Source of the DNA: a virus
Direction: 5' to 3' (one strand)
Virus record (IMG/VR): IMGVR_UViG_3300046820_000088
Coordinates: 1 to 64,000 of that record
Length of the DNA: 64,000 nt
The number at the start of each line of letters is the position of its first letter. Within the stretch, counting starts at the first letter, position 1. A program made the position numbers and the translations under genes. Positions 32,346 to 54,525 of this stretch are shown here, in pieces. The notes under the pieces were generated by a model. It was not told the DNA's origin. It saw nothing but the letters and a program-made list of their open reading frames with translations, and made no database searches.

Positions 32346-32354
32346 GGTTAAGAC

Positions 32355-34130: not shown

Positions 34131-34156
34131 TGTTAAATATGTTTAGGAGCGAATAA

Positions 34157-35968: not shown

Positions 35969-35974
35969 AAATAA

Positions 35975-35982
35975 GATAAATA
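35975..35982 (+). promoter_or_regulatory. T4-type late promoter before fibre paralog 4
   Basis: GATAAATA 22 bp before the ATG at 36004, with GGAG at 35993-35996. The predicted start near 35989 gives a short leader that still contains the ribosome binding site. Confidence 0.55.
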
Positions 35983-36003
35983 ACAGTATAACGGAGTGGA
36001 TGA

Positions 36004-37773
36004 ATGGCATATCAAGTAGACAGATTTAATGGAACGTTTTTAGTCTCAGTGGACGACGGTACCATTGATACAACCACCGATTTAAGATTTGTAGGTAAAA
36101 ACTATGCCGGCTACGGCGAAGTACAAAATGAAAACTTTTTGCACTTAATGGAAAACTTTGCCAATACAAGTCCACCTCCAAAAGTACTTTCCGGGCAAGT
36201 TTGGTATGATAGCGGCAATAAAAAGCTAAAGTTTTACGACGGAAACAGATTTAAAAATGCAGGCGGTGCCGAAGTAAGTGGCACAGCTCCTTCCGGGCTA
36301 GCAGAAGGCGAGTTCTGGTGGGACAGTTCTGCACAACAACTATATGCATGGACAGGAACTGACTATGTTTTAGTTGGTCCCGAGTCAGCTCCAGATCTAG
36401 GAGCTTCATCAATTGTATCATTGGTTGTAAAAGATACACTAGGAGTTAACCATAGCATCGGCAAACTTCAATCCGGTGGCGACTGTATTGCTATCATAAG
36501 CAAGGATACATTTACTCTGAATAGTGTTGTTAATCCTATTACTGGATTCAGTGTTATTAAGAAAGGTATGAACCTTATTAATACCGGAGGAACTACTGGA
36601 GTTACTACATCTGATCATTATTTCTGGGGAACTGCATCAAACTCATTGAAGTTAGGCGGGTTCAGTGCAGAGGATTTTGTCAGAGCTGGTAGTGCAACAT
36701 TTAACACAGCAGTTGGTTTTGGTGATTCTGGGTTTACTATCGGCGACCAGAATGACATTCGTTTCAGAATTGAGAACGGAGATGAGCCTGTATTAGAAAA
36801 TCAACTAGGTAATTCTATCAAAGTTAGAATCAGAATCAGCGATGTTGATCAGCGAGATGTATCTATATTTACTACTACTGGTGTTGTTCCGGGTACTACA
36901 GATTTTTATTCATTAGGATCATCTTCCAGCAAATGGGCTAACGTATTTTCTACTACATTTACTGGAGCACTATTAGGCAATGTAACTGGTAATGTATCTG
37001 GTAATGTGACAGGAAACATCTTAGCATCTGATGCAAGTGTAATGGTTAACTCTGCTACCAAGACATTTTTTGGTACATTGGGTTCACCGTCCACATTGGC
37101 TACTGTTTATGGTAACCTTTTAGGCGATGTTACTGGTACAGCAAGTAATGCAATCACGCTGAACGGAAGTTTATCATCTGTTTCAGCTACAGCTTCTACT
37201 CTAGCACTAAGAGATACTGGCGGTAATCTTACATCAACTAGATTTATTGGTACAGCAGATCTAGCAAATAGAATTAAAATAGATGACTCGGCAGTAGACA
37301 CTGATCCGTCTTATAGAACTGCAAAAACAATAGCTATTGCTAATACAATCGCTGCAAGAACCAGTTCTGGAAACTTAGTAGCAAACGTATTTGAAGGTAC
37401 TGCTACTAGCGCACGTTATGCTGATTTGGCAGAAAAGTATCTAGCAGACGCAGAATACGAACCAGGAACGGTGGTTTGTATTGGAGGCGAAAAAGAAGTT
37501 ACTGCAAGCACCTGGGGCAAACGTGCCATTGGTGTAGTAAGTACCAATCCGGCGTTTATGATGAACAAGGATTTAGAAGGCGGAACATATATTGCATTAA
37601 AAGGCCGTGTACCAGTTAAGGTTATCGGACGTATCAAGAGAGGCGAAGATTTGATTGCAGCAAATAACGGTTGTGCCGTAATGGCAGTGCCACATGCTAG
37701 CGGAGTCTTTGCAGTTGCATTAGAAACTAGCGATGATGAAGGCGTAAAAGTCATAGAAGCATTGGTACTATAA
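36004..37773 (+). CDS. Tail fibre paralog 4
   Basis: 589 residues with the shared N-terminal module (YAGYGEVQNENFLHLMENFA, SGQVWYDS, GEFWWDS, LYAWTGTDYVLVGP). The shaft includes the triplet-like GNVTGNVSGNVTGN repeat near residue 325. The C-terminal domain (ARYADLAEKYLADAEYEPGT, GVVSTNPAFMMN, GRVPVKVIGRIKRGE) is homologous to that of paralog 3 but its final 30 residues diverge. It has its own late promoter (35975-35982), so it can be expressed independently of the upstream fibres. GGAG precedes the ATG. Confidence 0.85.
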   Translation: MAYQVDRFNGTFLVSVDDGTIDTTTDLRFVGKNYAGYGEVQNENFLHLMENFANTSPPPKVLSGQVWYDSGNKKLKFYDGNRFKNAGGAEVSGTAPSGLAEGEFWWDSSAQQLYAWTGTDYVLVGPESAPDLGASSIVSLVVKDTLGVNHSIGKLQSGGDCIAIISKDTFTLNSVVNPITGFSVIKKGMNLINTGGTTGVTTSDHYFWGTASNSLKLGGFSAEDFVRAGSATFNTAVGFGDSGFTIGDQNDIRFRIENGDEPVLENQLGNSIKVRIRISDVDQRDVSIFTTTGVVPGTTDFYSLGSSSSKWANVFSTTFTGALLGNVTGNVSGNVTGNILASDASVMVNSATKTFFGTLGSPSTLATVYGNLLGDVTGTASNAITLNGSLSSVSATASTLALRDTGGNLTSTRFIGTADLANRIKIDDSAVDTDPSYRTAKTIAIANTIAARTSSGNLVANVFEGTATSARYADLAEKYLADAEYEPGTVVCIGGEKEVTASTWGKRAIGVVSTNPAFMMNKDLEGGTYIALKGRVPVKVIGRIKRGEDLIAANNGCAVMAVPHASGVFAVALETSDDEGVKVIEALVL

Positions 37774-37782
37774 GGATAAGAA

Positions 37783-38697
37783 ATGGCAGTCGGCGATTTT
37801 ATTACAGCAACAGACTATAATACCATCCGATCAAAGGTAGCATCGGTATTAGGTAACGGGTCTATTAGCTACGGATATGGACAAACTGTACAAAGTTCAA
37901 CAGTTGCAGTTGGAAACACTGTAACTAAAACACAGTGGGATGCTTTGCGTTGGGATTTATACAATGCATTATTTCATCAAACAGGCACAGTTCCGAGTAT
38001 TACACAGGTAGCGGTCGGCGACGTTATTCAGTTTGGCGCCGGATTTCCAAATAACCAATATAACACACTAGCTGATACAGCCGTTACTAACAGATTTAAT
38101 CTTGGTACAGGACAGTATGTTACAGAAGTAAAAGGATCAGTTAGCAAGACTGATTCTTGGTATTCAAATGTATCTTCTACAGTTACAGTTACATTTCCTA
38201 CACAATATCACGCAAATCATTTTTTTAATAGCGGTGGAAAAGTTAGATTTACTAGCACAAGAACTGGGGGCAGTGCTGTAGCGCAGAATAGTTCTTGGAG
38301 TAACATTTTAGCATCAGCTGGAACGCAGGCTTTTTCTGCAACAACTACACTAAATCTTTATAATCTAACCAGCAGCGATCAAACATTCTACACACTATCT
38401 GGTAGCAGCCCGTATTCATCAAACACATATCGTATACAGGCAAGATGTAATGTTGCTAACAACTCCGGCGGTACTGCAAATGTTATTACATTTACAGTCA
38501 GTTGGATTGACAACTATGTTGACTCCGGCCCAGCAACATCGGAAAATCCTGCTCCGGGCGATCTAGTTGATGGTACATTAACATTAGATGTTGACCAAAT
38601 ACGTGCAACTGGTACACTGCAACCAGCTCCTGCTACCGGTCCATTTACTATTTCTGGACCATCTGGTTACACAATCTCTGCAATCTCCGGAACTTAA
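37783..38697 (+). CDS. Virion structural protein near fibres
   Basis: 304 residues. The N-terminus (DFITATDYNTIRSKVASVLG then SYGYGQTVQSS and VTKTQWDALRWDLYNAL) recalls small virion proteins of marine phages that I have seen near fibre genes. The middle and C-terminus are beta-rich with many Ser, Thr and Asn, and the last 60 residues look like an Ig-like or adhesin-like strand set (GTLTLDVDQIRATG, TISGPSGYTISAI). It ends the fibre series and is followed by the hairpin/promoter at 38705-38748. The exact location in the virion is unknown. Confidence 0.7.
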   Translation: MAVGDFITATDYNTIRSKVASVLGNGSISYGYGQTVQSSTVAVGNTVTKTQWDALRWDLYNALFHQTGTVPSITQVAVGDVIQFGAGFPNNQYNTLADTAVTNRFNLGTGQYVTEVKGSVSKTDSWYSNVSSTVTVTFPTQYHANHFFNSGGKVRFTSTRTGGSAVAQNSSWSNILASAGTQAFSATTTLNLYNLTSSDQTFYTLSGSSPYSSNTYRIQARCNVANNSGGTANVITFTVSWIDNYVDSGPATSENPAPGDLVDGTLTLDVDQIRATGTLQPAPATGPFTISGPSGYTISAISGT

Positions 38698-38704
38698 AAT
38701 TTAA

Positions 38705-38748
38705 CTCCTATTAAGTACCACATAAATAATGTGCGTATTTAATAGGAG
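38705..38748 (+). promoter_or_regulatory. Late promoter inside an SD-masking hairpin
   Basis: CTCCTATTAA (38705-38714) pairs perfectly with TTAATAGGAG (38739-38748), and an inner CACAT/ATGTG stem closes on AAATA. The loop holds the late promoter CATAAATA (38721-38728). Right-arm AGGAG is the ribosome binding site of the gene starting at 38754. RNA reading through from the fibre genes would fold and hide that site; RNA starting at the promoter (about 38735) lacks the left arm and leaves it free. The same layout is known for T4 gene e. Confidence 0.7.
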
Positions 38749-38753
38749 ATCTC

Positions 38754-39104
38754 ATGGACGAACGTCTACAAAAAGCCTTAGAATTTTCTAACTACAGGCA
38801 AACACTCTCAATCCAACGTAAGCAACTTAAAGAAAAGATTGACGCTAGATTAACCTACGGATTTAACGGCGGTATCTTTAAGATTGATAGATCTCTGTTA
38901 ACATTTGTACAGATGTTATTAGATCAAGGCAGAGCAACAGATGTTCCGTTGTTAGATTCTAATGAGAATCCAATATTGATTAATAATCTTGAAGCATTTA
39001 GGGATGAAATATTGGATAGATATTTTACATCAACGTATGAATATTACGAAGAATATCAAAAACTAAAACAGAGCAGGTCTGTTGAAAAGTTACTAGATTT
39101 ATGA
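38754..39104 (+). CDS. Conserved phage protein at head of GT operon
   Basis: 116 residues beginning MDERLQKALEFSNYRQTLSI, with a helical Lys-rich N-terminus (about 1-35), then RLTYGFNGGIFKIDRSLLTF and a Leu-rich helical C-terminus containing a YEYYEEYQ stretch. I associate this family with T4-like marine phages; no function is known. Its ribosome binding site AGGAG lies in the right arm of the hairpin at 38705-38748, so it is probably made only late. The stop overlaps the start of the following glycosyltransferase-like gene (ATGA at 39101-39104). Confidence 0.75.
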   Translation: MDERLQKALEFSNYRQTLSIQRKQLKEKIDARLTYGFNGGIFKIDRSLLTFVQMLLDQGRATDVPLLDSNENPILINNLEAFRDEILDRYFTSTYEYYEEYQKLKQSRSVEKLLDL

Positions 39105-39964
39105 ACAAAGGTGTATTAATATTTGCTCATAACAATCCTAACATTGATTATGGTCTAATGGCGATTATTGCCGGAGGGCTTGCTAAGAAAAACTTAGGAG
39201 TTCCTGTGTCTGTTATTACGGACAAGTGGACAATCTCTTGGCTAAAAGAAACAGGTATGTACGACAAAGCTGTTGAGGTGTTTGATAAAATAATAGAAGT
39301 TGAAAAGCCTGTTACAAAGAATACTCGAAAGTTACACGACGGTTTTGACAGCAAGATTGTTCCATTTGAAAACTCTAACAGATATTCAGTATATGATTTA
39401 AGCCCTTATGATAAAACACTTATGATTGACAGTGATTATCTAATCTTCACTGATACACTAAATGAGTATTGGGATGTTGATGCAAGTGTTATGATGAGCG
39501 AATCGATGAATGATATTATAGGAGATCGCGTAGGTATCCTTGACAAGCGTGTATCCGAAACAGGTATTCATATGTTTTGGGCCACAACTGTGATGTTTAC
39601 AAAGAATGAAGAGAGTCGGTTCTTCTTTAAGCTAGTTGACTTTATTAAAGACAACTATAGATACTATGCAGATTTGTTTAGATTTAATCCTAAACAATAT
39701 AGAAACGATATTGCGTTTAGTATTGCAAAACATTTAATGAATGGTTTTGAAACTGAGTTTGTCTATACCTTACCGCCTGTGCTAACAGTTTCTGATAAAG
39801 ATATGCTTCACTTAGTTAAAGATAACGGCGACTTGATATTTTTATTAGATCAGCCACTCGATTGCGGCAGCTTTTGGTCGTCGGTTACACGTTCGGCAGA
39901 TATACATGTAATCAATAAACAAAGTATCATTAGACATTCTAAACCTCTATTGGAGTTGATATGA
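39101..39964 (+). CDS. Glycosyltransferase-like protein (GT-A type)
   Basis: 287 residues. The layout fits a nucleotide-sugar GT-A fold: an N-terminal strand VLIFAHNNPNIDY, a nucleotide-binding region, and the metal-binding DxD near residue 109 in KTLMIDSDYLIF. Further on, WATTVMFTKNEES and KQYRNDIAFSIAKH resemble acceptor-side elements of family-8-like enzymes. It probably transfers a sugar to a phage or host polymer in the cytoplasm; substrate unknown. It overlaps both neighbours by ATGA, so it is coupled within the operon. Distant homology to the next gene (same order: strand, DxD, DEAFA/NDIAFS) suggests an old duplication. Confidence 0.7.
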   Translation: MNKGVLIFAHNNPNIDYGLMAIIAGGLAKKNLGVPVSVITDKWTISWLKETGMYDKAVEVFDKIIEVEKPVTKNTRKLHDGFDSKIVPFENSNRYSVYDLSPYDKTLMIDSDYLIFTDTLNEYWDVDASVMMSESMNDIIGDRVGILDKRVSETGIHMFWATTVMFTKNEESRFFFKLVDFIKDNYRYYADLFRFNPKQYRNDIAFSIAKHLMNGFETEFVYTLPPVLTVSDKDMLHLVKDNGDLIFLLDQPLDCGSFWSSVTRSADIHVINKQSIIRHSKPLLELI

Positions 39965-40803
39965 ACTTTGGGTACCTAATAGTTGTATCGTCAAACTCTG
40001 AAGTGGACTATCTCAAGTTAGCCTATGCTGCCGCATTGAGTATCAAGAATACACAAAAAGAAGGTTACGATAAGGTAGCGCTGGTCATCGATGACAACTC
40101 CAAACTATCTGATATAAAGAGTCCTTGGGTATTTGATCACGTTATTGAATGGAGTCAGGAAACATTTTGGGATGGCCGTAGTTGGATGGATCAGCTAAGT
40201 CCTTTCGAATACACAGTCTGTATTGACGCAGATATGTTGTTCTTAAGAGATTACAGCCATTGGATAGATTATTTTATTGAAAACTCTGAGTTGTATGTTG
40301 CTAATAAAGCATACACCTTCCGAGGCGAAGTTATCACAAATGACTTTTATAGAAAAGCATTTACTAAAAATGATTTGCCTAATCTTTATTCAATGTTTAC
40401 GTTCTTTAAAAAGGATGCAGCAATTGTTAACGAGTTCTTTTCTTTAGGGAGATATATTGTTAAAAATCAAACAGAGTTTTCTAACTTGTTTTTAACAGCA
40501 CACAAGCCAAAGATTATTGGAACAGATGAAGCATTTGCATTGTCTGCAAAGTTGTTAGATATTACAGATGAGATTGCATATACTTTAGATTTTCCTAAAC
40601 TAGTACATATGAAACCTATGGTACAAAACTGGCCATGGCCTGCTGATCGAGTTACTGACCATGCAGGGTTTTACCTGTCAACAAATGGAAAGTTGAAGAT
40701 AGGAAACTATCAACAACACGACATTATTCATTATGTTGAAAAAGATATTATAACTGATGAGCTAGTTAGTATGTTAGAGGAGTTAGCATGGCACAAGAAA
40801 TAA
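39961..40803 (+). CDS. Glycosyltransferase-like protein (GT-A type)
   Basis: 280 residues. The N-terminal strand YLIVVSSNSEVDYLKLAYAA, then the DxD motif near residue 87 in EYTVCIDADMLFL, and IGTDEAFALSAKLL near 190 give the same order of elements as the preceding gene. HMKPMVQNWPWP near 220 is rich in aromatic residues that could line an acceptor site. It likely is a cytoplasmic sugar transferase with unknown donor and acceptor. Starts at ATGA 39961 and overlaps the following gene by 16 bp, within the late operon. Confidence 0.7.
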   Translation: MNFGYLIVVSSNSEVDYLKLAYAAALSIKNTQKEGYDKVALVIDDNSKLSDIKSPWVFDHVIEWSQETFWDGRSWMDQLSPFEYTVCIDADMLFLRDYSHWIDYFIENSELYVANKAYTFRGEVITNDFYRKAFTKNDLPNLYSMFTFFKKDAAIVNEFFSLGRYIVKNQTEFSNLFLTAHKPKIIGTDEAFALSAKLLDITDEIAYTLDFPKLVHMKPMVQNWPWPADRVTDHAGFYLSTNGKLKIGNYQQHDIIHYVEKDIITDELVSMLEELAWHKK

Positions 40804-41372
40804 AAGACTTCGATGAGTGGCTAGCAACATTTCAGGCTCCAACAGTTGAGTACTTTTTTTCTTACGACGAGGAAGGAAAGGTAACGGCATTATATTCTAC
40901 ATTTAATGTAGGAGATTTGACTAATATAGTAAAAGTTGATACTGAAGTTGCAGACGCAATCAACTCTGGATTAGAAACACTATTTTCCTATCGTGTAGAT
41001 ATTCGAACAAAGCAGTTGATAAAGATCAATAGATTTTTAACTCACGGACTTGTTAAGATTGACGATGTATTACATAGAGTAGTTGATAAAAAATGGTCAA
41101 CAATAGATGATCCTGACCTTAACATCGTATATGATTCTGTAAGCAGTCAACTATCATTTGAGATCAACAAAAAATATAACTCTACCTACTGGGCAGGGGA
41201 AACTGAAATGATATTTTTAATCACTGCCTATAACGATCCGAATCAGTTAAACGATATGATAAGTGTGAACGTTGCTGATTTATCAAAGAAAACATTTAAA
41301 ATAACACCGCCTAAAAAGTTTAGCATTTATACTCGCAGAATCTTTGAGAACTACGTATTTGAAACATTATGA
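40788..41372 (+). CDS. Conserved hypothetical protein in GT operon
   Basis: 194 residues with no motif I recognise. The N-terminus is acidic (IKDFDEWLATFQAP), followed by a beta-rich stretch (VEYFFSYDEEGKVTALYSTF) and another VDIRTKQLIKINRFLTHGLV. No Cys or DxD pattern is present, so an enzyme role is not supported. GAGGAG lies just upstream of the ATG, which is 16 bp inside the previous gene. It is coupled to the next gene by ATGA at 41369. Being sandwiched between glycosyltransferase-like genes, it may be a scaffold or acceptor protein; that is inference. Confidence 0.65.
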   Translation: MAQEIKDFDEWLATFQAPTVEYFFSYDEEGKVTALYSTFNVGDLTNIVKVDTEVADAINSGLETLFSYRVDIRTKQLIKINRFLTHGLVKIDDVLHRVVDKKWSTIDDPDLNIVYDSVSSQLSFEINKKYNSTYWAGETEMIFLITAYNDPNQLNDMISVNVADLSKKTFKITPPKKFSIYTRRIFENYVFETL

Positions 41373-42247
41373 AAACAGTTGAACTAGATATTGTATTTTT
41401 AAGTTACGATGAGCCCAACGCTGATCTACACTACGCTGACCTATGTAATAAAGTACCATGGGCAAAACGTGTACACGGAGTCAAAGGAAGTGATCACGCA
41501 CATAAAGCTGCCGCAGAGCTCAGTGAAACTGAATGGTTGATCACAGTTGATGCTGACAACATTGTTGATTCTAGATTCTTTAATCTTGATATAGACACAT
41601 CAAATCCGAAAGTTGAAGTTTTTAGTTGGCTTGCAAGAAACAAGATTAACGGTCTTCTGTACGGAAATGGTGGATTAAAAATCTGGAAAAAAGACTTTAT
41701 CCTTAACATGAAAAGTCATGAAGCTAGTGACAGCGAACGTGCTCAAGTTGACTTCTGTTGGGAAGATGGTTATGTACAGTTTAAAGATTGTTATAGCGAA
41801 ACAGTTATAACAGGCAGTCCTTTCCAAGCATGGCGTGCAGGATTCCGTGAAGGCGTTAAGATGACCTTGCTCGACGGAATTAAAGTTCCTCCTCAAGAAA
41901 TCAAAGAACGTATCTGGTGGCATAATCTTCATAGACTAAAAATGTGGTCAACTGTTGGCGCTCATGAAGAAAACGGAAAGTATGCGATCCTTGGAGCACG
42001 CATGGGAACATGGATGACCAACTGTACAGATTGGAACTATGTAGATGTGCGTGACTTTGAAGTGTTAAAAAACATTTATGAACAAAATGTCAATCATACT
42101 TTCTTAGAACAGGACGCACAAGATCTAGGAGTCAAAATTAAACAACAACTGGGTTTAGATTGGCCTTGGCTAGATGAAAAACAAAGTCAATATACATTAG
42201 ACTTATACGAAGAAACAATCAAACTCACAAACACATACCTAAGATGA
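41369..42247 (+). CDS. Glycosyltransferase-like protein with DAD motif
   Basis: 292 residues. The first strand reads DIVFLSYDEPNADLHYADL, followed by PWAKRVHGVKGSDHAHKAAA and the metal-binding DAD in LITVDADNIVD (about residue 60). Later YGNGGLKIWKKDFIL and PFQAWRAGFREGVKMTLLDG are shared with the C-terminal domain of the next gene, so the pair are paralogs. Activity is probably sugar transfer, as in GT-A enzymes; donor and acceptor are unknown. ATGA overlaps join it to both neighbours. Confidence 0.7.
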   Translation: MKTVELDIVFLSYDEPNADLHYADLCNKVPWAKRVHGVKGSDHAHKAAAELSETEWLITVDADNIVDSRFFNLDIDTSNPKVEVFSWLARNKINGLLYGNGGLKIWKKDFILNMKSHEASDSERAQVDFCWEDGYVQFKDCYSETVITGSPFQAWRAGFREGVKMTLLDGIKVPPQEIKERIWWHNLHRLKMWSTVGAHEENGKYAILGARMGTWMTNCTDWNYVDVRDFEVLKNIYEQNVNHTFLEQDAQDLGVKIKQQLGLDWPWLDEKQSQYTLDLYEETIKLTNTYLR

Positions 42248-43896
42248 TTTATGATATCTTTTATGCTTCGAGGTCGTCTATAGACTCTGATGACTGGAAT
42301 CAGTTTCATTCTAGATTTCCGTCTTCTCAAAAAATAGAAAATGTAAAAACATTTGCCGATATAAAGAAGAAAGCATTTACTAAGTTCTTTTGGGTAGTTT
42401 GGAACGATTTAACAATATCACCCGAGTTTGATTTTAGTTACAGGGTTCCTAAGTGGGACGAAGAGTACATACATATTTGGAAAAATGCAGAATATTTTGA
42501 CGGGGTGTGTTTATTTTCTAAAGGAAATACTTTTTCTCAAAGAGAGTTTGACACACGATTCTTTGTTAATAACAAAAAAGAAATAGATGAAGTTGCTAGC
42601 TACCCAAAAGCATTTGAAATAGTAACCATCGATACCTATGAAGAATATCTAGAAACTATTGAGTCTGCAAAGACAAACATGTTCTGGATAGTTTGGAACG
42701 ATCTAATGCCGTTAGACAGTTTTAAGTTTGATTTTCAGGTACCTTTTTATAATCAACATATTCCTCACATTTTTAAAAATGGAGAGTTTTTTGACGGTAT
42801 TGTATTATTGTCTAAAACTAAACCAGTTTCTAAAAAAGAGTTTGTACATAGATTTTTTATCAATAAAAAAGAAATCAATATACTGGCAAGCGTTCCAAAA
42901 CAATATGAACAGTTTTCTTTAGAATATTATGAAGACTATCTAGAAGCCAAAGAAAAGTCAAAGACTGAACTTTTCTATTTGGTACCTGAAGAAGTTGAAG
43001 TTAAAGATAACTTTAAGTTTGATTTATATTTCAGCCATCATAATAGTTACGAGCGTAAGATAAATCACGTATTTAAAAATCAAGATATCGATGAAGACAA
43101 GTACAATGGTATAATGCTGTTGTCAAAATCTAGTGAACTTAGTAAGAGAGAGATTGATTTTAGATATCTGATCGAGAAGAAAGAATACGATGTTGTAGCA
43201 AGTACACTAAAGTATTACGACATTATTTTTATCAGTTACAATGAGCCAAATGCTGACGAAAGCTATAAAACACTTTTAAAACGCTTTCCTGGGGCAAAAC
43301 GTGTACACGGAGTCAAAGGTATACATCAAGCGCATATAGAAGCTGCAAAGCTGTCTAAGACGCCAATGTTTTGGGTAGTAGATGCCGATGCAACTATTGT
43401 TGACGATTTTAACTTTGATTTGCGTTTGCACAAGTATGACAGAGACATTGTTCATATTTGGCACAGCCGTAATCCTGTCAACGATTTGGAATACGGATAT
43501 GGCGGAGTTAAACTACTTCCAAAATATCTAGCGTTATCTATGAGCACTGATACTGTAGACATGACAACATCTATCAGCAAAAAGATTAGAATAATGCCTA
43601 CAGTTAGTAACTATACATCGTTTAATACTGATCCTTTCAGTACCTGGAAATCAGCATTTAGAGAATGTGTAAAACTTGCTAGCCGAGCTATTGATAGAGA
43701 TTATCAAGCAGAGACTGAATCTAGATTAAGAACTTGGTGTACAGTTGGATCCGATAAACCATTTGGCAGCTATGCTATTGCCGGAGCAATAGCAGGAGCC
43801 AAATACGGATATAACAATATTACTGATCCCGAAGCCTTGTCTAAGATTAACAACTTTGAATGGTTGTTAGAACAATATCAGTTGTCAATAAACTGA
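42244..43896 (+). CDS. Multidomain protein: three degenerate GT-like repeats plus GT domain
   Basis: 550 residues. The C-terminal part (from about 325) is a full GT-A-like domain homologous to the preceding gene: IIFISYNEPNADESYKTLL, KRVHGVKGIHQAHIEAAKLS, the DAD motif in FWVVDADATIVDD (about 379), YGYGGVKLLP and STWKSAFRECVKLASRAID. Before it are three tandem units of about 97 residues, each with an FW.V core, F.FD, then H..KN..FDG, LLSK, EF..RFF and NKKEI. Units 1 and 2 have VWND (about 51 and 149) where the catalytic DAD should be, and unit 3 has VPEEV (about 245), so they are probably inactive copies. The gene ends the operon and overlaps the oppositely oriented radical-SAM gene by 19 bp. 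Confidence 0.7.
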   Translation: MIYDIFYASRSSIDSDDWNQFHSRFPSSQKIENVKTFADIKKKAFTKFFWVVWNDLTISPEFDFSYRVPKWDEEYIHIWKNAEYFDGVCLFSKGNTFSQREFDTRFFVNNKKEIDEVASYPKAFEIVTIDTYEEYLETIESAKTNMFWIVWNDLMPLDSFKFDFQVPFYNQHIPHIFKNGEFFDGIVLLSKTKPVSKKEFVHRFFINKKEINILASVPKQYEQFSLEYYEDYLEAKEKSKTELFYLVPEEVEVKDNFKFDLYFSHHNSYERKINHVFKNQDIDEDKYNGIMLLSKSSELSKREIDFRYLIEKKEYDVVASTLKYYDIIFISYNEPNADESYKTLLKRFPGAKRVHGVKGIHQAHIEAAKLSKTPMFWVVDADATIVDDFNFDLRLHKYDRDIVHIWHSRNPVNDLEYGYGGVKLLPKYLALSMSTDTVDMTTSISKKIRIMPTVSNYTSFNTDPFSTWKSAFRECVKLASRAIDRDYQAETESRLRTWCTVGSDKPFGSYAIAGAIAGAKYGYNNITDPEALSKINNFEWLLEQYQLSIN

Positions 43897-45125
43897 TCCC
43901 AGTTATCCTTATTAGGTCTTGGGTTATCTTTGTGAGACCAGATTTTGTCTATCTGACTATTTTCGCCACAGGTGTTTGCACAGAACATAAGTTTATTAGC
44001 ACCTGTTTGATTCCAAGAATCGGCAAACACTCTGTTTAAGTGTCCTGCTTCTAATATTTCTTCTAAAGAATAGTTATTAAGATTAAAATATTGATTGCCG
44101 TAATCCTGTAGTTTTTTCTTTAGTTGTACGATTTCCGGAGTTGAATGTGTAGTTTCGATGTTAGTTCCGACATAGCAACACGGACTTACTCTTCCGGCTG
44201 AACTAACATATATTTCTCTACCGCCTCCCCAGGTTTCGGACTTGCATGAAATGTTTTTACAATCTGTATCTGTATAATCGATTTCGCGCTCTTTGAAAGA
44301 TTTACCGTCAAACTTGTCAACAAGCTCGTTGTGCGGATCTAATACAGCATATTTGTAAAACTTGATTACTGATGGTTCAATATGGTCGAACCTTGGGATT
44401 GGATCTTTTGCAATATCGAAGTTTCTGTTATCAAGCTCAGTAGGTGGTTCTAACCAATACTTGAACTCTCCTTCTTTTCCTAGTGCTGCTACTTTGACTA
44501 GTTTTCCTTCGTTGTTAAATCCCAATGCTTTTTTAGGAGCAAAGGTTGCAAATCCAAGTTCTATGGATAAGTTCTTGGCTTCTTGGATCTGATGTTCGTT
44601 GTGACGAAATATTAAAAAGTCCCACTCAGCCTTTCCTCCTGCATTAATAAATGCTTTGGAGTTTTTCATTAAAGTGTTCCAGTTTACATTTCTTCTGTAA
44701 AGATGGTTGGTATCTTCTAGACCATCGATAGAAAATATAACTTTAAATCTTCGATTAAAACTGTTGGCTGAAAGATGTCCTAATCTAGTCCAATCCTTTT
44801 CTCCCCTCATCCCACCGTTAGTATTAACAGTGATGTTAACCGTAGGATTGATTGTAAGAATGTGTTCAATGATATTGATAGCATCCTTTGCCATCATAGG
44901 ATCACCGACAGTACCGCAGAATATCCAATGATTAGTTTTCTTAACAATATCGTCAGAGAACCACTCTTTAAACTGTTCGAGAGTTATTTGATTTAACTCT
45001 ATATCTGGTCGGAGTATTTCTGTGCCTTCGTAGTATCTAGGACATAGGGGACATGCAGCATTACAATAACTTGAAAGCTCGCAGTGTATTTGAAATAACT
45101 TTTCTTTAATCCAAAAATCTGTCAT
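43878..45125 (-). CDS. Radical SAM protein with C-terminal SPASM-like cysteines
   Basis: 415 residues. The radical SAM cluster motif is CNAACPLC (residues 21-28), followed by an SAM-binding-type GT.GDP region (FCGTVGDPMMAKDAI, in place of GGEP) and VTVNTNGG. The C-terminal quarter holds several cysteines (CKNISCKS, SPCCYVG, FCANTCG), a SPASM-like auxiliary cluster domain. This is the standard order and differs from the three upstream paralogs, where the auxiliary cysteines come first. Radical SAM/SPASM enzymes often modify peptides; the substrate here is unknown. It is the last gene of the unit and is coupled by ATGA to the gene before it. Confidence 0.85.
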   Translation of the reverse strand: MTDFWIKEKLFQIHCELSSYCNAACPLCPRYYEGTEILRPDIELNQITLEQFKEWFSDDIVKKTNHWIFCGTVGDPMMAKDAINIIEHILTINPTVNITVNTNGGMRGEKDWTRLGHLSANSFNRRFKVIFSIDGLEDTNHLYRRNVNWNTLMKNSKAFINAGGKAEWDFLIFRHNEHQIQEAKNLSIELGFATFAPKKALGFNNEGKLVKVAALGKEGEFKYWLEPPTELDNRNFDIAKDPIPRFDHIEPSVIKFYKYAVLDPHNELVDKFDGKSFKEREIDYTDTDCKNISCKSETWGGGREIYVSSAGRVSPCCYVGTNIETTHSTPEIVQLKKKLQDYGNQYFNLNNYSLEEILEAGHLNRVFADSWNQTGANKLMFCANTCGENSQIDKIWSHKDNPRPNKDNWDQFIDN

Positions 45126-46297
45126 TTGTATTTTTTAATAAGTTCGCCGAACTCTTTGAATGTTTCGTAATAGTTTTCTTTTCGATAAGCATCATGTATA
45201 TCGATCTGTTCTTTGAACTTATTCCAACGCCAGTCTGTAAATGTCCCGTCTTGAACAAACTTTATAATACCGGGAATCTGATGCCATTCTCTTTCAAACT
45301 TTTTATCGATGCTTTCTAGTTTTTTACATATTGCTTCTTTTATCTCATCTGGAAAGATATTAGAACAATAGTAGTCTGGATAGTGTACAAGATTTAGATA
45401 TATATGCCAGTTTTCTTTTTCAAAGAATTCTAAAAACTCAGGCACATAGTAGACGTTCAATGCACTGATGGTATGACATATTCCGAATAAAATATTGTCT
45501 CGACCTTTAGCCCATTCTCTAGCTTTTTGCATATTTGCATATACTTCGTTCCACTTTGCAGGATGTCTCATAAATTCAAACTGTAGACCAATACCATCGA
45601 TGCTGAAGCCAATATCGACAAACTTGAAATGATCAAACAACTTAATATGTTCTTCATTCCATTGAGTTCCGTTGGTATTGTAGTGTAGAGTTTGATTCTT
45701 GCTCCAGCCGTTAGCTACAGACTTTTCAATAAACTCCCACTGCTGTTTTATAAGCCAAGGTTCTCCTCCGTAGAAATCTATTTGAATAACATCTTTACCG
45801 ATGTCCTCTATTTCTGACCACAGCTTGCTTTCTTTTTCCCAGCTATCGTTATATATTTTAGCATTGATGAGATATTCTTTCTTTGGTAGCTTAACACCTT
45901 CGATCATTGTGTCGTAATATTCGTTAAGCCATAGGCTGCTGCTATATGGGTGACAAGTTCTGCATTTAATATTGCAGGTGTTGCCCATGTTTAGTTCTAG
46001 TGTTTTAATACCGTCTGTTTCTGCAAAGTCAAACTTTGCATTGTCTCGGATTCGTTTACTATCACGCCCGGCATCTTCTTCGTTCCAGCACTTAATACAC
46101 GCAGGATGTCTTTCACCTTTTTTAAACGCCTCCCTAACATCTTCCATATAGGGATCTTTCCATAACTCTGTTAGTGTATGATCAACGACTCTATTTTTAG
46201 ATGATCCGTCAATCATACAACAGTGTTTTATAGACCCCGTTGAATTTATGCTAAGATTATGAAATGCATTGACACAATAAAACTTTTTATTTTCCAT
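45122..46297 (-). CDS. Twitch/SPASM-type radical SAM protein
   Basis: 391 residues from the ATG at 46297, preferred over 46336 because it reduces overlap with the upstream gene to 11 bp and begins MENKKFYCVNAF, like the paralogs. An N-terminal cysteine module (C8, CC at 26-27, C67-x2-C70 followed by WNEEDAGRDSKR) comes first; the radical SAM cluster CNIKCRTC is at 108-115, and FYGGEPWL supplies the GGEP motif. This N-terminal auxiliary module followed by a radical SAM core is the arrangement named twitch domain-containing radical SAM proteins. The reaction is unknown. Overlaps the next gene by ATGA. Confidence 0.85.
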   Translation of the reverse strand: MENKKFYCVNAFHNLSINSTGSIKHCCMIDGSSKNRVVDHTLTELWKDPYMEDVREAFKKGERHPACIKCWNEEDAGRDSKRIRDNAKFDFAETDGIKTLELNMGNTCNIKCRTCHPYSSSLWLNEYYDTMIEGVKLPKKEYLINAKIYNDSWEKESKLWSEIEDIGKDVIQIDFYGGEPWLIKQQWEFIEKSVANGWSKNQTLHYNTNGTQWNEEHIKLFDHFKFVDIGFSIDGIGLQFEFMRHPAKWNEVYANMQKAREWAKGRDNILFGICHTISALNVYYVPEFLEFFEKENWHIYLNLVHYPDYYCSNIFPDEIKEAICKKLESIDKKFEREWHQIPGIIKFVQDGTFTDWRWNKFKEQIDIHDAYRKENYYETFKEFGELIKKYK

Positions 46298-47681
46298 AGT
46301 TCTCGTACTCTGTTTTACATATAGCCATAAACTCACTATACTCTGGAAATAGGGTGTGAAAGTCTGTTCCTAATCTTTTGTCGTTTTCTGTAAAGAAACT
46401 ATAGAAGTCTCTGCGTCCTTGTTTAATCTTTTCGTCGCTGACTGGATTTTCTCTCATGTAATCTACTACACGCTTGAACACTTCGTACTCTAGTTCGTTA
46501 AATCCTACAGCTAGTCCATTAGACATCATGTTGTCTTTGATAAACTGTAGATTATCTGACATGTACTGATTGAAGCTTTCTGGTAAGATATTGATCATCC
46601 AGTGTGGAGGTTCTTTTAAGTACGGAGTATCGAACTGCACACGTTGATGCCACGGAGTTCCTGGATAGTCTCTTCTAAGTTCTAAGATCTTTTCCAACAG
46701 TGTTCTAAAGTTTGCAACTGTTAGTACATTAAAGGTAATCATAAAACTGATATCTTGTTGAGGAAGATTATCTAGATAGTATCTAAGATTCTTTTCCCAA
46801 AGAACAATGTCTAACCCAGTGCGAATATATTCGGCTTGTGGCCCCCAGGTGTCGATACTGGTATACAACTTAAACCCTTTGATGGCTTTTTTCTCTAATA
46901 ACACCTTAACATGATCAACTAGTTTTTGTACAAGTCTGTGTGTTACTCCTAGATTACTGTTAAGATGAATTTCTAAGTGCGGACTAGGATCGTTTTCCAA
47001 CATCTCTAACATCTTAAATGTATTCGGATTCATCAACGGCTCTCCGCCTGTGATACGGAACACACGTAGATCTTTCTTAAGACTAGGCCACCATTCCCAG
47101 AATGCATCTACATAGGGATTGGGGTCATCTTTATTAAAAAATTCGCTGTAATTTAAAAAATCGATACCATACTGATTGTATGTTAGATCGTAGTTGCCGT
47201 GTCTCTTTACTTCTTCCATCCAACTACTAGATGCCTGAGGGCAGCAATATCCACATCTAAAGTTACAACCGTTTCCGAAACTAACTTCGAGATGTCTAGG
47301 ATTCCAATCGGCTTCCCAACCACCGGCAACAATATCGTCGATTGTAGAGTCGATATAGTTAGAACTGTGCTTCATGCGATCACTAATATGCTCGCCCGGC
47401 AAGTCTTCAATATTCCAGCAATAATAACATTCTTGAGGTCTGCCACCCTCCATCATTTCTTTACGTTGTTGTTTTTTCCAAGGTGTATTATGTAATGCAC
47501 TAGGATTGTCTTTCAGCAACGTTTTGTCAATTTTGTGTGGCCGTGGATGATAGCAGCTATGATTATCTCCCATGTGAAGATATAGCGTTTCCATATTCCA
47601 TTTTGCTAGACAAAATCCTTTGCCTACTTTGTTTAACTGGTCTCGTGTATCCTGTATAATCTCGATGTATTTTCTTGTCAT
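46287..47681 (-). CDS. Twitch/SPASM-type radical SAM protein
   Basis: 464 residues. The N-terminal cysteines (C24, C43 in HSCYHP, C85-x2-C88 in CYYCWNIED) precede the radical SAM cluster CNFRCGYC at 139-146. The GGEP motif is in FRITGGEPLMNPNTF. The spacing of all these elements matches the 539-residue paralog next door (CNFKCSYC at 142-149), so the two arose by duplication. The C-terminus (RLGTDFHTLFPEYSEF) is also shared with that paralog. Substrate unknown; peptide or sugar modification is plausible. Its ATG overlaps the upstream stop (TAATG). Confidence 0.87.
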   Translation of the reverse strand: MTRKYIEIIQDTRDQLNKVGKGFCLAKWNMETLYLHMGDNHSCYHPRPHKIDKTLLKDNPSALHNTPWKKQQRKEMMEGGRPQECYYCWNIEDLPGEHISDRMKHSSNYIDSTIDDIVAGGWEADWNPRHLEVSFGNGCNFRCGYCCPQASSSWMEEVKRHGNYDLTYNQYGIDFLNYSEFFNKDDPNPYVDAFWEWWPSLKKDLRVFRITGGEPLMNPNTFKMLEMLENDPSPHLEIHLNSNLGVTHRLVQKLVDHVKVLLEKKAIKGFKLYTSIDTWGPQAEYIRTGLDIVLWEKNLRYYLDNLPQQDISFMITFNVLTVANFRTLLEKILELRRDYPGTPWHQRVQFDTPYLKEPPHWMINILPESFNQYMSDNLQFIKDNMMSNGLAVGFNELEYEVFKRVVDYMRENPVSDEKIKQGRRDFYSFFTENDKRLGTDFHTLFPEYSEFMAICKTEYENYGK

Positions 47682-49300
47682 TATTTTCCTAGATAGATAT
47701 TTGGAAATGCTTTTTTAAAATCTGTTCCTCTTCGTTGATCGTGTTGTACAAAAAACTCAGATAGATTTTGAATATTAGTTTCTCTTATTTCAGCGGTGTA
47801 TTTATTTTCTTCTATTAGCGCGATGTTTCTTTTCAACTTCTCAACCTCGTAGGGTTTAAATCCAGTTAAAGATTTTTGATATATGTTTTCGTTGCAGTGT
47901 GTTTCCATCCATGTAAGTACTCCTTTCAAATGCTCTATATCTTTATCAGTAGCATTAAAAATATTAAGCCATTGGGGATTTCTTAATACTGGAATATCAA
48001 ACCATACTCGTTGAAATGGTCTTATTTTATATTTCATTTGAGCTAATACTGACCATTCTTTTCTCAACTGAAGAATCATTTCTAAGTATTCTTTTATATT
48101 AGGTATACTTAAAAGATTGAATGTATTGATAAAACTCACGCTGGTATTTCTGGTCTTACTTAAGAATGTTCTAGTATTTGTCAACATTCTATCAAAGTCA
48201 AGACCATTGCGTATATATTCGGCCTGCTCGCCTACGCTATCAACACTTACATAAAGTGTAAAATGTTTACAGGCTTTATCATTGTATTTGTAAAGATAAG
48301 TGAAGCTACCATCTTCAAGAGCGTGACCTATTACTGGAAATGTTTGAGGAATATCGAATCGTTCAATACTAGGAAGATCGCTGTTGTGATATTCTTTAGA
48401 GTCTTTACCGATGATAAAATGCTTCCACGAAGTCCAATCGCTTCCGTCTTTAGGATCAGGAACATAGCATTCTGCAGAATGTTCTACAGTATCTAATGCT
48501 TTAACTTTATCTACAAACTTATCAAACAGTTCCTGCTTCGGAGGGCACATGTTACTAGTAATGCTTAATTCTAGATTTTTATTAGGATTATCTTTTACGT
48601 AGTCTAGAACCTTAAAGGTATTTGCATCTAGCAAAGGTTCGCCGCCAGTCATGCGAAATACTTTGAGATTGGCGTATATGTCCGGCCACCATTTCCAGAA
48701 AGCTTCAACATAGGGATTATCTTTGTTTGCAAGACCGATTGGCATCAATCCAACATTTTTTAGAACAGCAATATTATTGTGTTCTTCTTTTCCTATGTTA
48801 TAGGGACCGTATATTTCGATTTCGTTTTGCCATTCACTACTTAGGTGAGGACTACAGTAACTACATTTAAAGTTACATGTTTGATTGAAGTTTACTTCAA
48901 CGTAAGTTGGCTTGACGTTAAAGTCAAACGGCTGACTGACAATCTCGTCGATTTTATCAACAGCCCAATGTTCGCTACTTCTGTAATATCTATCGCTAAC
49001 GTGCCCGGCATCTTCAATCTTCCAGCAGTAATCACACCCTGTAGGTCGTTGACCTTCGAGCATCATTTTTCGTTCTTCGAACTTTTGATAGGTATTATGT
49101 AATGCACCAGGATCTAACTTTAGCTGATCTAAGTTAATCTGATGTGTGGGAGGGTGATAGCAACTATGTGTGCGACCATTAGTTAGATGCAAACTAACTT
49201 GAAGCCATTTGGCCGCACAGAAGCTCGGGCTTATACTGTCTATATGAGATTTTGATGAATCAAAACCTTTAACGTAAAAGTTGACTTTTTTTGTTTCCAC
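47681..49300 (-). CDS. Twitch/SPASM-type radical SAM protein, longest copy
   Basis: 539 residues with N-terminal cysteines C28, C47 (SCYHPP), C89-x2-C92 (CDYCWKIEDAG) and the radical SAM motif CNFKCSYC at 142-149. FRMTGGEPLLDANTF gives the SAM-binding GGEP. Compared with the 464-residue paralog it has an insert of about 70 residues after CPPKQELFDKF (about residues 270-345), with further cysteines. The C-terminus ends RRGTDFKKAFPN like its paralog. It is the first of four radical-SAM genes and starts 1 bp after the preceding small gene, so it probably depends on the late promoters at 50753 or 51485. Reaction unknown. Confidence 0.87.
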   Translation of the reverse strand: METKKVNFYVKGFDSSKSHIDSISPSFCAAKWLQVSLHLTNGRTHSCYHPPTHQINLDQLKLDPGALHNTYQKFEERKMMLEGQRPTGCDYCWKIEDAGHVSDRYYRSSEHWAVDKIDEIVSQPFDFNVKPTYVEVNFNQTCNFKCSYCSPHLSSEWQNEIEIYGPYNIGKEEHNNIAVLKNVGLMPIGLANKDNPYVEAFWKWWPDIYANLKVFRMTGGEPLLDANTFKVLDYVKDNPNKNLELSITSNMCPPKQELFDKFVDKVKALDTVEHSAECYVPDPKDGSDWTSWKHFIIGKDSKEYHNSDLPSIERFDIPQTFPVIGHALEDGSFTYLYKYNDKACKHFTLYVSVDSVGEQAEYIRNGLDFDRMLTNTRTFLSKTRNTSVSFINTFNLLSIPNIKEYLEMILQLRKEWSVLAQMKYKIRPFQRVWFDIPVLRNPQWLNIFNATDKDIEHLKGVLTWMETHCNENIYQKSLTGFKPYEVEKLKRNIALIEENKYTAEIRETNIQNLSEFFVQHDQRRGTDFKKAFPNIYLGK

Positions 49301-49301
49301 A

Positions 49302-49610
49302 TTATTCTAGTAAACTTTTACTTTTAGCAGTGACATCTTTTCTTAACCGTTCGACGTCCACTTTAAAATCTACTTTCTTGATTTCGTTTCTGTACTCGTA
49401 GAATGTTTCTAAAAGTTTATCTGCAACGACCTGTGCTTTTGTTTCTTGGATCTTATTCTTTATATCTATTTCCCAAACTCTACCGTTGGTAAACTCTAGA
49501 CGAATATAATCTAGGTAAGCAACCGGTAGAGTATTAATATAAAGGTCTTCAAAAATCTCAGGCCATTCTCTAACTAGGTCTAAAGGCGGTCTGAAGAAGT
49601 TTTTAGACAT
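49302..49610 (-). CDS. Conserved small phage protein
   Basis: 102 residues: MSKNFFRPPLDLVREWPEIF at the N-terminus, a short beta-segment (YLDYIRLEFTNGRVWEIDI), then a charged helical C-terminus. I associate this family with T4-like marine phages; function unknown. It overlaps the upstream gene by 8 bp and sits immediately before the radical-SAM genes, so it is part of the same transcription unit. Confidence 0.75.
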   Translation of the reverse strand: MSKNFFRPPLDLVREWPEIFEDLYINTLPVAYLDYIRLEFTNGRVWEIDIKNKIQETKAQVVADKLLETFYEYRNEIKKVDFKVDVERLRKDVTAKSKSLLE

Positions 49611-50262
49611 CAGCAGGTTCGTCGACCTTCTTAGTTACTTTCTTTACAGGTGGATCTAACGAATCTGCTTCTTTACGTAATCTAGCAGCTTCCTTATACA
49701 TAGCATCTGCTTGACTACGATATGATTTAGCAATGTCTTTGTCGCTTAACACTTCATTAGCCGCCGCCTTCAATGGCTCAACTCTTGTAGGAATGTTTGG
49801 CTCTCCGACATCTCTTCCTAGATCTTTAACTTCTACGATTTCTTCTACAGAAGAATTCTTCTTAGGAGCACCTGCCACAAATGTATATAGATCATCTATA
49901 GCACAGTTTTTTTGTTCTGCAATCAATACGTTTAGCTGATGAAGGTCGATAGCTGTTCCCGGAGTGGGGGTCATTTCGATAGAATCAGTAGGAACTTTTT
50001 GTAGAGCGCTGTCTGCATTTAATGCCTGTAGCATCGGACGTCCGTCTGGAAATGTTCGTGTGAACATAATCTCGCCAAACTCAAATGCTTCTTGTGCTTG
50101 ATCAGTTTCAACAACTTTCATGATAGAATCATGATACTCATTTGAGAGTGGAGCAACTGGCAGTATCAATGCATAGTTTGATTCGCCGGGTAGTGTTCTA
50201 AACACTACTAATACTTTCGCCCCAGTTTTTTTAACCCTTCCAATGTGCTTTAACGATTTCAT
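49603..50262 (-). CDS. Conserved phage protein, 219 aa
   Basis: The N-terminal domain (MKSLKHIGRVKKTGAKVLVV then RTLPGESNYALILPVAPLS) looks like a small beta-barrel; the middle holds RTFPDGRPMLQALNADSALQ and VPTDSIEMTPTPGTAIDLHQ; the C-terminus (residues 140-219) is polar, helical and rich in Lys, Glu and Ala. The N-terminal part resembles proteins of T4-like marine phages, with no assigned function. It is coupled by ATGA (50259-50262) to the upstream gene and overlaps the downstream one by 8 bp. The Lys/Ala-rich tail could be a nucleic-acid-binding extension; that is inference. Confidence 0.75.
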   Translation of the reverse strand: MKSLKHIGRVKKTGAKVLVVFRTLPGESNYALILPVAPLSNEYHDSIMKVVETDQAQEAFEFGEIMFTRTFPDGRPMLQALNADSALQKVPTDSIEMTPTPGTAIDLHQLNVLIAEQKNCAIDDLYTFVAGAPKKNSSVEEIVEVKDLGRDVGEPNIPTRVEPLKAAANEVLSDKDIAKSYRSQADAMYKEAARLRKEADSLDPPVKKVTKKVDEPADV

Positions 50263-50471: not shown

Positions 50472-50744
50472 TTAGTTTCTCCTTAAGTGAGGACAAGCTA
50501 ACATAAAGTAGGTAAGTTCTTTCTGGTCCTCAAATCCAACAACTGTTGAAGATTTAAACTTTCCTTGTGAATCAACACCAGGATTTTTAAGAACAAAAAA
50601 CCTGCCTTTTAGTTTGCTTTGAATCCAGTTGATCATTTTCTCATTATAGTAATCGCTTTCGTGTAGCGTAGCTTTGTTAAAATGAACACATGCTACTTTT
50701 ACACGACGTTGACCTAAAACATCTAATGGGTTTATATCAAACAT
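50472..50744 (-). CDS. Conserved phage protein behind a late promoter
   Basis: 90 residues beginning MFDINPLDVLGQRRVKVACV, with a beta-rich body and C-terminus ELTYFMLACPHLRRN. Conserved-looking in T4-like marine phages, function unknown. A perfect late promoter TATAAATA lies at 50753-50760, only 9 bp before the ATG, and there is no Shine-Dalgarno in the gap, so transcripts from it would be nearly leaderless. Read-through from the upstream gene would supply a leader but no obvious binding site either. Confidence 0.75.
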   Translation of the reverse strand: MFDINPLDVLGQRRVKVACVHFNKATLHESDYYNEKMINWIQSKLKGRFFVLKNPGVDSQGKFKSSTVVGFEDQKELTYFMLACPHLRRN

Positions 50745-50752
50745 AGTGTGAA

Positions 50753-50760
50753 TATTTATA
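50753..50760 (-). promoter_or_regulatory. Consensus T4 late promoter
   Basis: Minus-strand TATAAATA, an exact match to the T4 late consensus, 9 bp upstream of the ATG at 50744. The predicted start (about 50746) would leave only about two bases before the start codon. It would serve the genes from 50744 down through the radical-SAM quartet. Confidence 0.7.
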
Positions 50761-53228: not shown

Positions 53229-53686
53229 TGTTGTTCTTTTTTAAGGCGTTCTTTTAGACTACCAGAATCTATAGGACCGCCATAATCTCCGTCAACAACT
53301 ACGTTTGCACATAGTTCTCGAAACCATCGATCAACGATTTCTTCATCGGGATCTCCGTCGGAGCCGTAACCCTCTTGTTTTAATTTTAACACAAAATACT
53401 CATTCCAGTCAAGCTCTAAGAACCCGTTGCGAATATTATCTTCGTTAACATGAGTATTAAGTACTCCTACCCAGGATTCTTTTTTACGAGTTGCACGTTC
53501 TTTTGGACTGAGTTTTGATAGTTCTTCAGCTTCTTTTGCTTTTTCAGCTTCTTGCCTAGCACGTTCTGCTTCACGCTGATGAGCTGCTGTTTCTTCTACA
53601 GCCTGCATTAGTTTCGATTCTGCATCTGCAATAGTCTTTTCTAACTTATCTACACCAGTAATCTTTTTAAAGAATTTTCCTAACAT
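53225..53686 (-). CDS. Coiled-coil phage protein, 153 aa
   Basis: Starts at the ATG at 53686, whose A is shared with the QueE stop (TAATG); the longer GTG start at 53698 is rejected. The N-terminus MLGKFFKKITGVDKLEK is followed by a long Glu/Ala/Lys coiled coil (residues 20-60) and a globular C-terminal half with NTHVNEDNIRNGFLELDWNE, DPDEEIVDRWFRELCANVV. Resembles a conserved family of T4-like marine phages; function unknown. It sits between queE and rnh, coupled to both. Confidence 0.75.
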   Translation of the reverse strand: MLGKFFKKITGVDKLEKTIADAESKLMQAVEETAAHQREAERARQEAEKAKEAEELSKLSPKERATRKKESWVGVLNTHVNEDNIRNGFLELDWNEYFVLKLKQEGYGSDGDPDEEIVDRWFRELCANVVVDGDYGGPIDSGSLKERLKKEQQ

Positions 53687-54525
53687 TATGTTCCCCACTC
53701 GTTTTTAAACAACGGCACTTGTAATCGATCACTGTATCGTAAGCCATTCTTCATTGCTAAATCTGCCACTGTTCGATTGTTTAGTGTGTAAACACTTTCG
53801 ACGCCACCTACTGGCATTAGATAAACGTGTCCTTTAAATCCAGCCGCACGATACGCACCAATAGCACACTCTGCATCAGCAAAGTCTTGTTCTGTAGCAA
53901 TAACAAACTTTAGATAAGCTGTGCCAACTTGTTCGTATTCGCATACAACGTCTGGCAGGATGGCTTCTTCCCACTTCTCGCCACTGCATGGAAGTTTAGC
54001 ACTTACACTGAATGTGATTTCTCTATCAGTTCTGCCAGCCCACATATTCAAATAAGATTTAAATTCTTCTGTTAGCTTTTGAGTACCGTTTGTTTCAAAC
54101 GTAATTTCTTTAAGCCCACGCATTTTATTGTGTTCTAGCAAATCTGGATAAGCACGTTGCCAACCCAGCAACGGCTCACCACCTGTAATTACAAGATGTT
54201 CGTCCCGCCATTCTTTGTACGGTAGCGTATCCACAATAGCATCGGCAATTGAATCAGAAGAAAGAACGGGAGATAGATGCTTAAAGCGAGGATCCCAGCT
54301 AGCGTAACTATCACAACCTGTACTAACCAAAGGTAACGATTTGTACTCGGAGTAAAGAGACGGGTTAATATTTTCTGCTTCATTGCTAAGTTCTCCTCTA
54401 GTCATACCAAACCCTGCACATTTGAAGTTACACCCAAATGTACGTAAGAAAACAGAAGGAACTCCCATGTAACGTCCTTCGCCTTGTATGCTGTAGAACA
54501 GCTCTGCTATTTTAATTTTACTCAT
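53686..54525 (-). CDS. queE: QueE-like 7-carboxy-7-deazaguanine synthase (radical SAM)
   Basis: 279 residues. Family hallmarks: IAELFYSIQGEGRYMGVPSV at the N-terminus, FLRTFGCNFKC with C32 and C36, VITGGEPLLGWQ near 112, ITFETNGTQ and FSVSAKLPCSG. QueE converts 6-carboxytetrahydropterin to 7-carboxy-7-deazaguanine, the first base of the deazapurine pathway. The third cluster cysteine does not follow at the usual distance; C71 in TGCDSYASWD is the likely third ligand, after an insert of about 30 residues. FolE-, QueD- and DpdA-like genes lie in the same strand series. Overlaps MazG by 8 bp. Confidence 0.85.
   Translation of the reverse strand: MSKIKIAELFYSIQGEGRYMGVPSVFLRTFGCNFKCAGFGMTRGELSNEAENINPSLYSEYKSLPLVSTGCDSYASWDPRFKHLSPVLSSDSIADAIVDTLPYKEWRDEHLVITGGEPLLGWQRAYPDLLEHNKMRGLKEITFETNGTQKLTEEFKSYLNMWAGRTDREITFSVSAKLPCSGEKWEEAILPDVVCEYEQVGTAYLKFVIATEQDFADAECAIGAYRAAGFKGHVYLMPVGGVESVYTLNNRTVADLAMKNGLRYSDRLQVPLFKNEWGT

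Follow-up and report, generated by a model that had tools for sequence, protein, structure and literature searches.

T4-like viruses that encode several radical SAM (rSAM) proteins have been described before (PMC5332604; PMC7029224). One T4-like marine viral genome carries 12 rSAM genes together with Fe-S carriers, which the authors interpreted, in the passage dealing with them, as Fe-S-related metabolism (PMC5332604). In the host-recognition cluster of pelagimyophages, rSAM gene cassettes are presented, in the passages concerned, as one of the variable parts, next to glycosyltransferases and tail fibres (PMC7029224), and viral samples from the Tasman Sea were enriched in rSAM as well as glycosyltransferase genes (PMC7150976). 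In the open-licence literature, we found no description of a coupled glycosyltransferase-rSAM cassette or operon or of its function, and no paper reporting an activity or function for NF033640 (N_Twi_rSAM), the NCBIfam model of twitch domain-containing radical SAM proteins with an N-terminal twitch module followed by the core.

Here, we analyse four tandem rSAM genes, R1 to R4, in a window of 64,000 nucleotides (positions 1 to 64,000 of the IMG/VR virus record IMGVR_UViG_3300046820_000088), and compare them with 80 related loci, giving a set of 81 with this stretch. Judged by its baseplate gene, this uncultivated T4-like virus is nearer to jumbo T4-like phages (Salicola phage SCTP-2 and Agrobacterium phage Atu_ph07; ~36% identity) than to the pelagimyophages. 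Downstream of the baseplate wedge gene, the plus strand encodes a virion structural protein of 4515 residues with FG-GAP repeats (16051-29598; PHROG 10938).

Results

Four radical SAM genes with two auxiliary-cluster layouts

The initial annotation had placed four intact rSAM genes in tandem at 43878-49300, and the span proved exact (Table 1). The four open reading frames run head to tail on the minus strand, with neighbours overlapping or abutting, and their cluster motifs are present together with the loop motif GGEP in R1-R3 and GDP in R4. The genes just upstream of R1 (49302-49610 and 49603-50262) likewise overlap or abut. The 50-bp overlap between R2 and R3 suggests that the true start of R3 may lie further in than the annotated GTG. 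All four proteins scored 30.4-35.3 bits against Pfam Radical_SAM (PF04055), above its gathering score of 29.5 bits. In comparisons with relatives, dN was 0.04-0.30 with dS saturated or near-saturated, and this strong bias to synonymous change points to strong purifying selection on the quartet.

Table 1. Features of the glycosyltransferase cassette, the radical SAM block and the late-promoter-like sites.
Feature	Position	Strand	Remarks
Tail fibre/virion structural genes	30276-37773	+	upstream of cassette; match tail fibre PHROGs
u304	37783-38697	+	directly after tail fibre genes; conserved ahead of cassette
CATAAATA, late-promoter-like	38721-38728	+	ahead of glycosyltransferase cassette
u116, first cassette gene	38754-39104	+	conserved in cassette order
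GT2a, putative glycosyltransferase, glycogenin/GT8-like	39101-39964	+	weak match, E ~0.04; DxD invariant in family alignment
GT2b, GT2a paralogue	39961-40803	+	invariant D89-x-D91
u194, conserved cassette protein	40788-41372	+	
A1, predicted GT-A fold glycosyltransferase	41369-42247	+	invariant D61-x-D63; modelled fold
A1-long	42244-43896	+	three degenerate half-copies of a GT-A domain, then the domain itself at the C-terminus; gene converges on R4
R4, radical SAM protein, SPASM/twitch-like Cys module at C-terminus	43878-45125	-	415 aa; GDP instead of GGEP
R3, N-terminal-twitch radical SAM protein	45122-46336	-	404 aa, GTG start; bacterial homologues exist
R2, N-terminal-twitch radical SAM protein	46287-47681	-	464 aa; in tandem with R1 throughout
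R1, N-terminal-twitch radical SAM protein	47681-49300	-	539 aa, GTG start; NF033640; own orthologous clade
TATAAATA, T4-type late promoter -10 like	50753-50760	-	heads gene run ending in R1-R4

The proposal of two auxiliary-cluster layouts was borne out by the cysteines kept in at least 93% of relatives in our alignments. These are C28, C47, C89 and C92 ahead of the core C142/146/149 in R1; C24, C43, C85 and C88 ahead of C139/143/146 in R2; and C21, C39/40, C80 and C83 ahead of C121/125/128 in R3. In R4, the core C21/25/28 comes first, followed by C294, C316/317, C382 and C386. Thus four cysteines precede the CxxxCxxC core in R1 and R2 and five in R3, whereas five lie behind it in R4. NF033640 scores agree with the division: R1 (293 bits), R2 (306) and R3 (306) exceed the cut-off of 170 and are members of this family, whereas R4, with its C-terminal module, scored 45 bits and is not.

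The order seen in the three module-first genes had been called twitch/SPASM-type, and here the assignment has to be reversed. In canonical SPASM/twitch enzymes, the auxiliary module stands after the core, as in R4, and it is the module of R1-R3 that is permuted to the N-terminal side. R4 reached 19.3 bits against the SPASM domain PF13186 (cut-off 21.5). Because its module holds the five conserved cysteines, we read it as twitch-like with one cluster rather than as a full SPASM domain.

Structure prediction, a check suggested earlier, gave R2 a radical SAM fold. The best PDB matches of the AlphaFold2 model (pLDDT 83) are radical SAM enzymes, among them AprD4, viperin, SuiB and MoaA, all matched weakly (TM ~0.3), so the matches do not tell the substrate. 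AprD4, an aminoglycoside-acting enzyme, ranked first; we rejected it as a sign of a sugar substrate on account of the low scores.

Another rSAM-like gene lies at 53686-54525 on the minus strand. Its QueE-like product scored below the Pfam Radical_SAM threshold, and its putative cluster cysteines two and three stand ~33-40 residues apart (GCNFKC-AGFGM...STGCDSYASW), with the insert kept in relatives.

The quartet is conserved among related viruses

Relatives of R2 are encoded in at least 376 IMG/VR stretches and those of R4 in at least 596 viral stretches. A synteny search for the quartet had been recommended, and it found the set conserved: four rSAM ORFs occur in 44 of the 81 loci, five in 22 and seven in 4, with R1 and R2 adjoining, or nearly so, throughout the loci examined. 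In a tree built by a quick method, with long branches outside these clades, R1, R2 and R3 each formed one clade (99% SH-aLRT), R1 and R2 being sisters (86%). Since each of the three forms a single supported clade, the rSAM set is old and orthologous.

Neither R2 nor A1 had a match by tblastn among 50,697 phage records, so cultured relatives were sought via R3 and R4. They carry distant versions only: R3-like genes in Vibrio phages and an R4-like fragment in Pelagibacter phage Mosig. K566 and phi-pp2 are among the Vibrio phage counterparts, and Vibrio phage QD01, which has V. natriegens Vmax as a laboratory host, carries N-twitch rSAM genes. That such a row is unusual for a phage, as first noted, holds for isolates only; among the uncultivated aquatic T4-like viruses studied here, it is the rule.

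Some related viruses (L020-L023) have seven rSAM ORFs in a row without the glycosyltransferase cassette, adjoining fatty-acid-desaturase-like and 2OG-oxygenase-like genes. We also considered an Fe-S carrier as a defining partner of the rSAM genes and rejected it: an IscA-type carrier is encoded in 5 of 20 related records, and the family was not found in this record.

A glycosyltransferase cassette is coupled to the radical SAM block

Gene clustering across all loci revealed a recurrent order of tail fibres, u304, u116, two GT2 genes, u194, one or two A1 genes and the rSAM block. By its place, u304 is probably a virion protein. The rSAM block is co-directional with the glycosyltransferase cassette in 60 of the 73 cassette-bearing loci. 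All 28 distinct adjacent A1/R1 pairs overlap (gap at most -4 bp, median -15.5), gaps between rSAM genes are 10 bp or less in 125 of 128 cases, and most other internal cassette gaps are near zero. In 13 loci, including this stretch, the block lies on the opposite strand beside the conserved 49302-55000 gene run; in the clade of this stretch, it is split from the glycosyltransferase run and inverted. Eight of the 81 loci have the block without the cassette, some of them being truncated contigs. From this arrangement, the tail-fibre-adjacent glycosyltransferase and rSAM genes probably constitute one late operon in most of these aquatic viruses.

A1 is predicted to be a GT-A glycosyltransferase because of its fold matches and the invariant D61 and D63. 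Its model (pLDDT 89.5) matched GT-A glycosyltransferases as the leading Foldseek hits in the PDB, headed by the PBCV-1 capsid glycosyltransferase 2p6w (E 1e-5) with SunS/ThuS next, at TM-scores of only ~0.3 and without a Pfam match. The half-copies in A1-long are ~30-35% identical to its own catalytic domain and have lost the DxD site, with the final domain intact; the protein varies in length among relatives, up to 876 aa. PDB profile searches with R4, A1 and u194 returned nothing.

Accessory genes found inside or after the rSAM block of other loci resemble glycan tailoring functions: GDSL-like/SGNH hydrolases, SDR and methyltransferase. Related loci also have a 2OG-oxygenase-like gene and, close to the block of one relative (L059, 14934-16850), a gene for a B12-binding radical SAM protein, a possible methyltransferase. 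The GDSL-like calls are sub-threshold, and the SDR, 2OG-oxygenase and several SGNH readings were made by eye only. We could demonstrate no gene for nucleotide-sugar synthesis in the record, whose last 38 kb are annotated in part only.

Late-promoter-like sites

Late promoters had been reported upstream of the rSAM genes. There is indeed a late-promoter-like TATAAATA at a distance of 1.45 kb ahead of R1, all intervening genes being on the same strand, and no NATAAATA-type site immediately before R1. We rejected the notion that such motifs are abundant, since TATAAATA occurs once in the whole stretch against 6.5 expected by chance, showing no overall enrichment; the weight rests on positional conservation. 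NATAAATA stands ahead of u116 in 26 of 45 loci and ahead of the 51171-51455 gene family in 31 of 33; for the gene family of 50472-50744, 24 of 35 loci have it in the 60 bp that precede the gene. As these positions recur far above the chance background of ~0.5% per 60 bp, T4-type late transcription of both halves, the cassette and the rSAM run, is likely as far as a motif can tell.

Recurrence in cultured phages and bacteria

In Vibrio phage K566 (OZ196521), four N-twitch rSAM genes are interleaved with two Pfam GT8 genes, with PagP ~3 kb further on. Close to their rSAM genes, Vibrio phages have PagP, which acts in lipid A acylation, or an RfaF-like heptosyltransferase. In Pelagibacter phage Mosig, the R4-like fragment and other MoaA-like genes stand beside genes annotated as an ArnB-like aminotransferase, a carbamoyltransferase and an epimerase.

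Bacterial homologues of R3 are many in Bdellovibrionota and Bacteroidota. Their neighbours include carbamoyltransferases, GDSL lipases, DegT aminotransferases, GT2 and WbsX (counts without a matched control), as well as mannose-6-P isomerase-like and nucleotidyltransferase genes. Two bacterial proteins combine such functions with an N-twitch rSAM in a single chain: L098 joins SPASM, rSAM, methyltransferase and WbsX glycosyltransferase domains, and L109 joins sulfotransferase, methyltransferase, SPASM and rSAM domains. A cassette of R2, R3 and R4 in a binned Flavobacteriales contig (L088) was set aside as bacterial evidence, as the contig looks like a phage.

On one bacterial contig (L092, 4619-12025), four rSAM genes belonging to the R1/R2, R3 and X classes stand in tandem, with a phage-type integrase ~1 kb upstream. 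This set is probably a mobile island, and such rSAM sets may travel on islands too.

Discussion

The link between rSAM and glycan genes recurs in three settings, namely this virus group, Vibrio and Pelagibacter phages, and bacteria, and we take it as the best guide to the class of substrate. R1-R4 would then be the half of a glycan module, expressed late, that does the tailoring. The GT-A glycosyltransferases GT2a, GT2b, A1 and A1-long would assemble a short glycan, and R1-R4 would employ 5'-deoxyadenosyl radicals and one auxiliary Fe-S cluster each for C-H chemistry, such as epimerisation, dehydration or oxidation, on sugars or on the glycan in its activated or attached form. The product would decorate a surface. 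Since the module is tied to the fibre locus and has late-promoter-like sites, the adjacent tail fibres or virion are a somewhat likelier place than the host envelope. We infer the sugar substrate, the type of reaction and the place of display from this genomic context, and regard a late module that builds and radically tailors a glycan for the virion or host surface as moderately probable. Within this reading, display on the virion itself is a tentative choice, the remainder being left between the virion and other late-stage surfaces. The most specific form, in which a phage operon of wide occurrence combines glycosyltransferases with four distinct rSAM enzymes as a fixed set to build a radical-tailored glycan on tail fibres, is somewhat doubtful.

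The same chemistry could instead be directed at the host envelope, where remodelled LPS/O-antigen or capsule would keep out superinfecting phages or aid the release of progeny. Bacterial homologues in surface-polysaccharide-like loci and the Vibrio phages with PagP or RfaF-like neighbours fit this target, and the authors of the pelagimyophage study, in the passages concerned, read the glycosyltransferases of the host-recognition cluster in this way (PMC7029224). The late-promoter-like motifs and the linkage to tail fibres, however, fit virion assembly better than early exclusion, and we recognised neither a flippase nor a ligase among the cassette genes, which leaves a host-envelope target doubtful. 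A further alternative is that the rSAM proteins are maturases of a tail fibre protein, u304, u116 or u194, introducing RiPP-like cross-links or epimerisations while the glycosyltransferases act separately. Many characterised SPASM/twitch rSAM enzymes modify peptides, the R3 profile matches SkfB (E 3e-8), R3 has weak hits to many peptide-maturase models, and the fibre genes adjoin. Against this, the overlapping rSAM genes leave no room for precursor-peptide genes between them (elsewhere, the search covered ORFs of at least 60 aa), u116 and u194 are neither Cys-rich nor core-peptide-like, R1-R4 all scored far below the curated cut-offs of the RiPP maturase equivalog models, and fusions and neighbours point to glycans. 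Peptide modification, as in such protein maturation, is possible but improbable.

Marine viral rSAM genes have also been listed as auxiliary metabolic genes, in the parts of the reports that treat them (PMC5332604; PMC7150976), and the IscA-type carrier of some related records would suit a role in host small-molecule or cofactor metabolism. Yet R1-R4 reached no cut-off among the cofactor-pathway equivalog models, pathway partners are missing beside the rSAM genes, and the coupling to glycosyltransferases is strict; cofactor metabolism is unlikely, and an auxiliary metabolic role altogether highly improbable. Returning to the glycan module, the suggestion of a virion- or late-stage substrate keeps its force insofar as a virion location is possible. 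As a bare reading, it misses the glycosyltransferase coupling, and a glycan is the better-supported substrate class. The rSAM enzymes probably take part in making or decorating an unusual surface sugar, and modification of a bare virion protein is the less likely role.

For NF033640, the coupling to glycosyltransferases, the GT8 neighbours and the bacterial fusions together offer a testable hypothesis: in the recognition between phage and host, these enzymes would apply radical chemistry to sugars of the surface. A product on the virion would represent a new kind of phage surface modification, and a product on the host would be a new way to mask receptors. A radical-tailored glycan on tail fibres, if true, would be a virion modification chemistry for which the literature searched gave no phage description.

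The locus resembles those of marine T4-like viruses, which have as many as 12 rSAM genes (PMC5332604), and differs from them in its glycosyltransferase coupling, which is absent from the passage found there. Likewise, orthology, operon coupling and late promoters do not feature in the passages on rSAM cassettes of the pelagimyophage study (PMC7029224). SkfB, SuiB, AprD4 and MoaA share the rSAM core and, in most cases, an auxiliary module with our proteins, as weak profile or fold matches; the module of R1-R3 is permuted to the N-terminus, and the substrates of these enzymes are not transferable. A likeness in a phage isolate is the group of four N-twitch rSAM genes among GT8 genes in Vibrio phage K566, which is distant (~23% identity, R3 match), has another gene order and yielded no R1/R2 class. 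With the NF033640 family, R1-R3 share the permuted N-terminal Cys module followed by the rSAM core. The name of that model gives no function; in the loci described here, an orthologous set made up of three paralogous classes is maintained together with a fourth, non-member enzyme.
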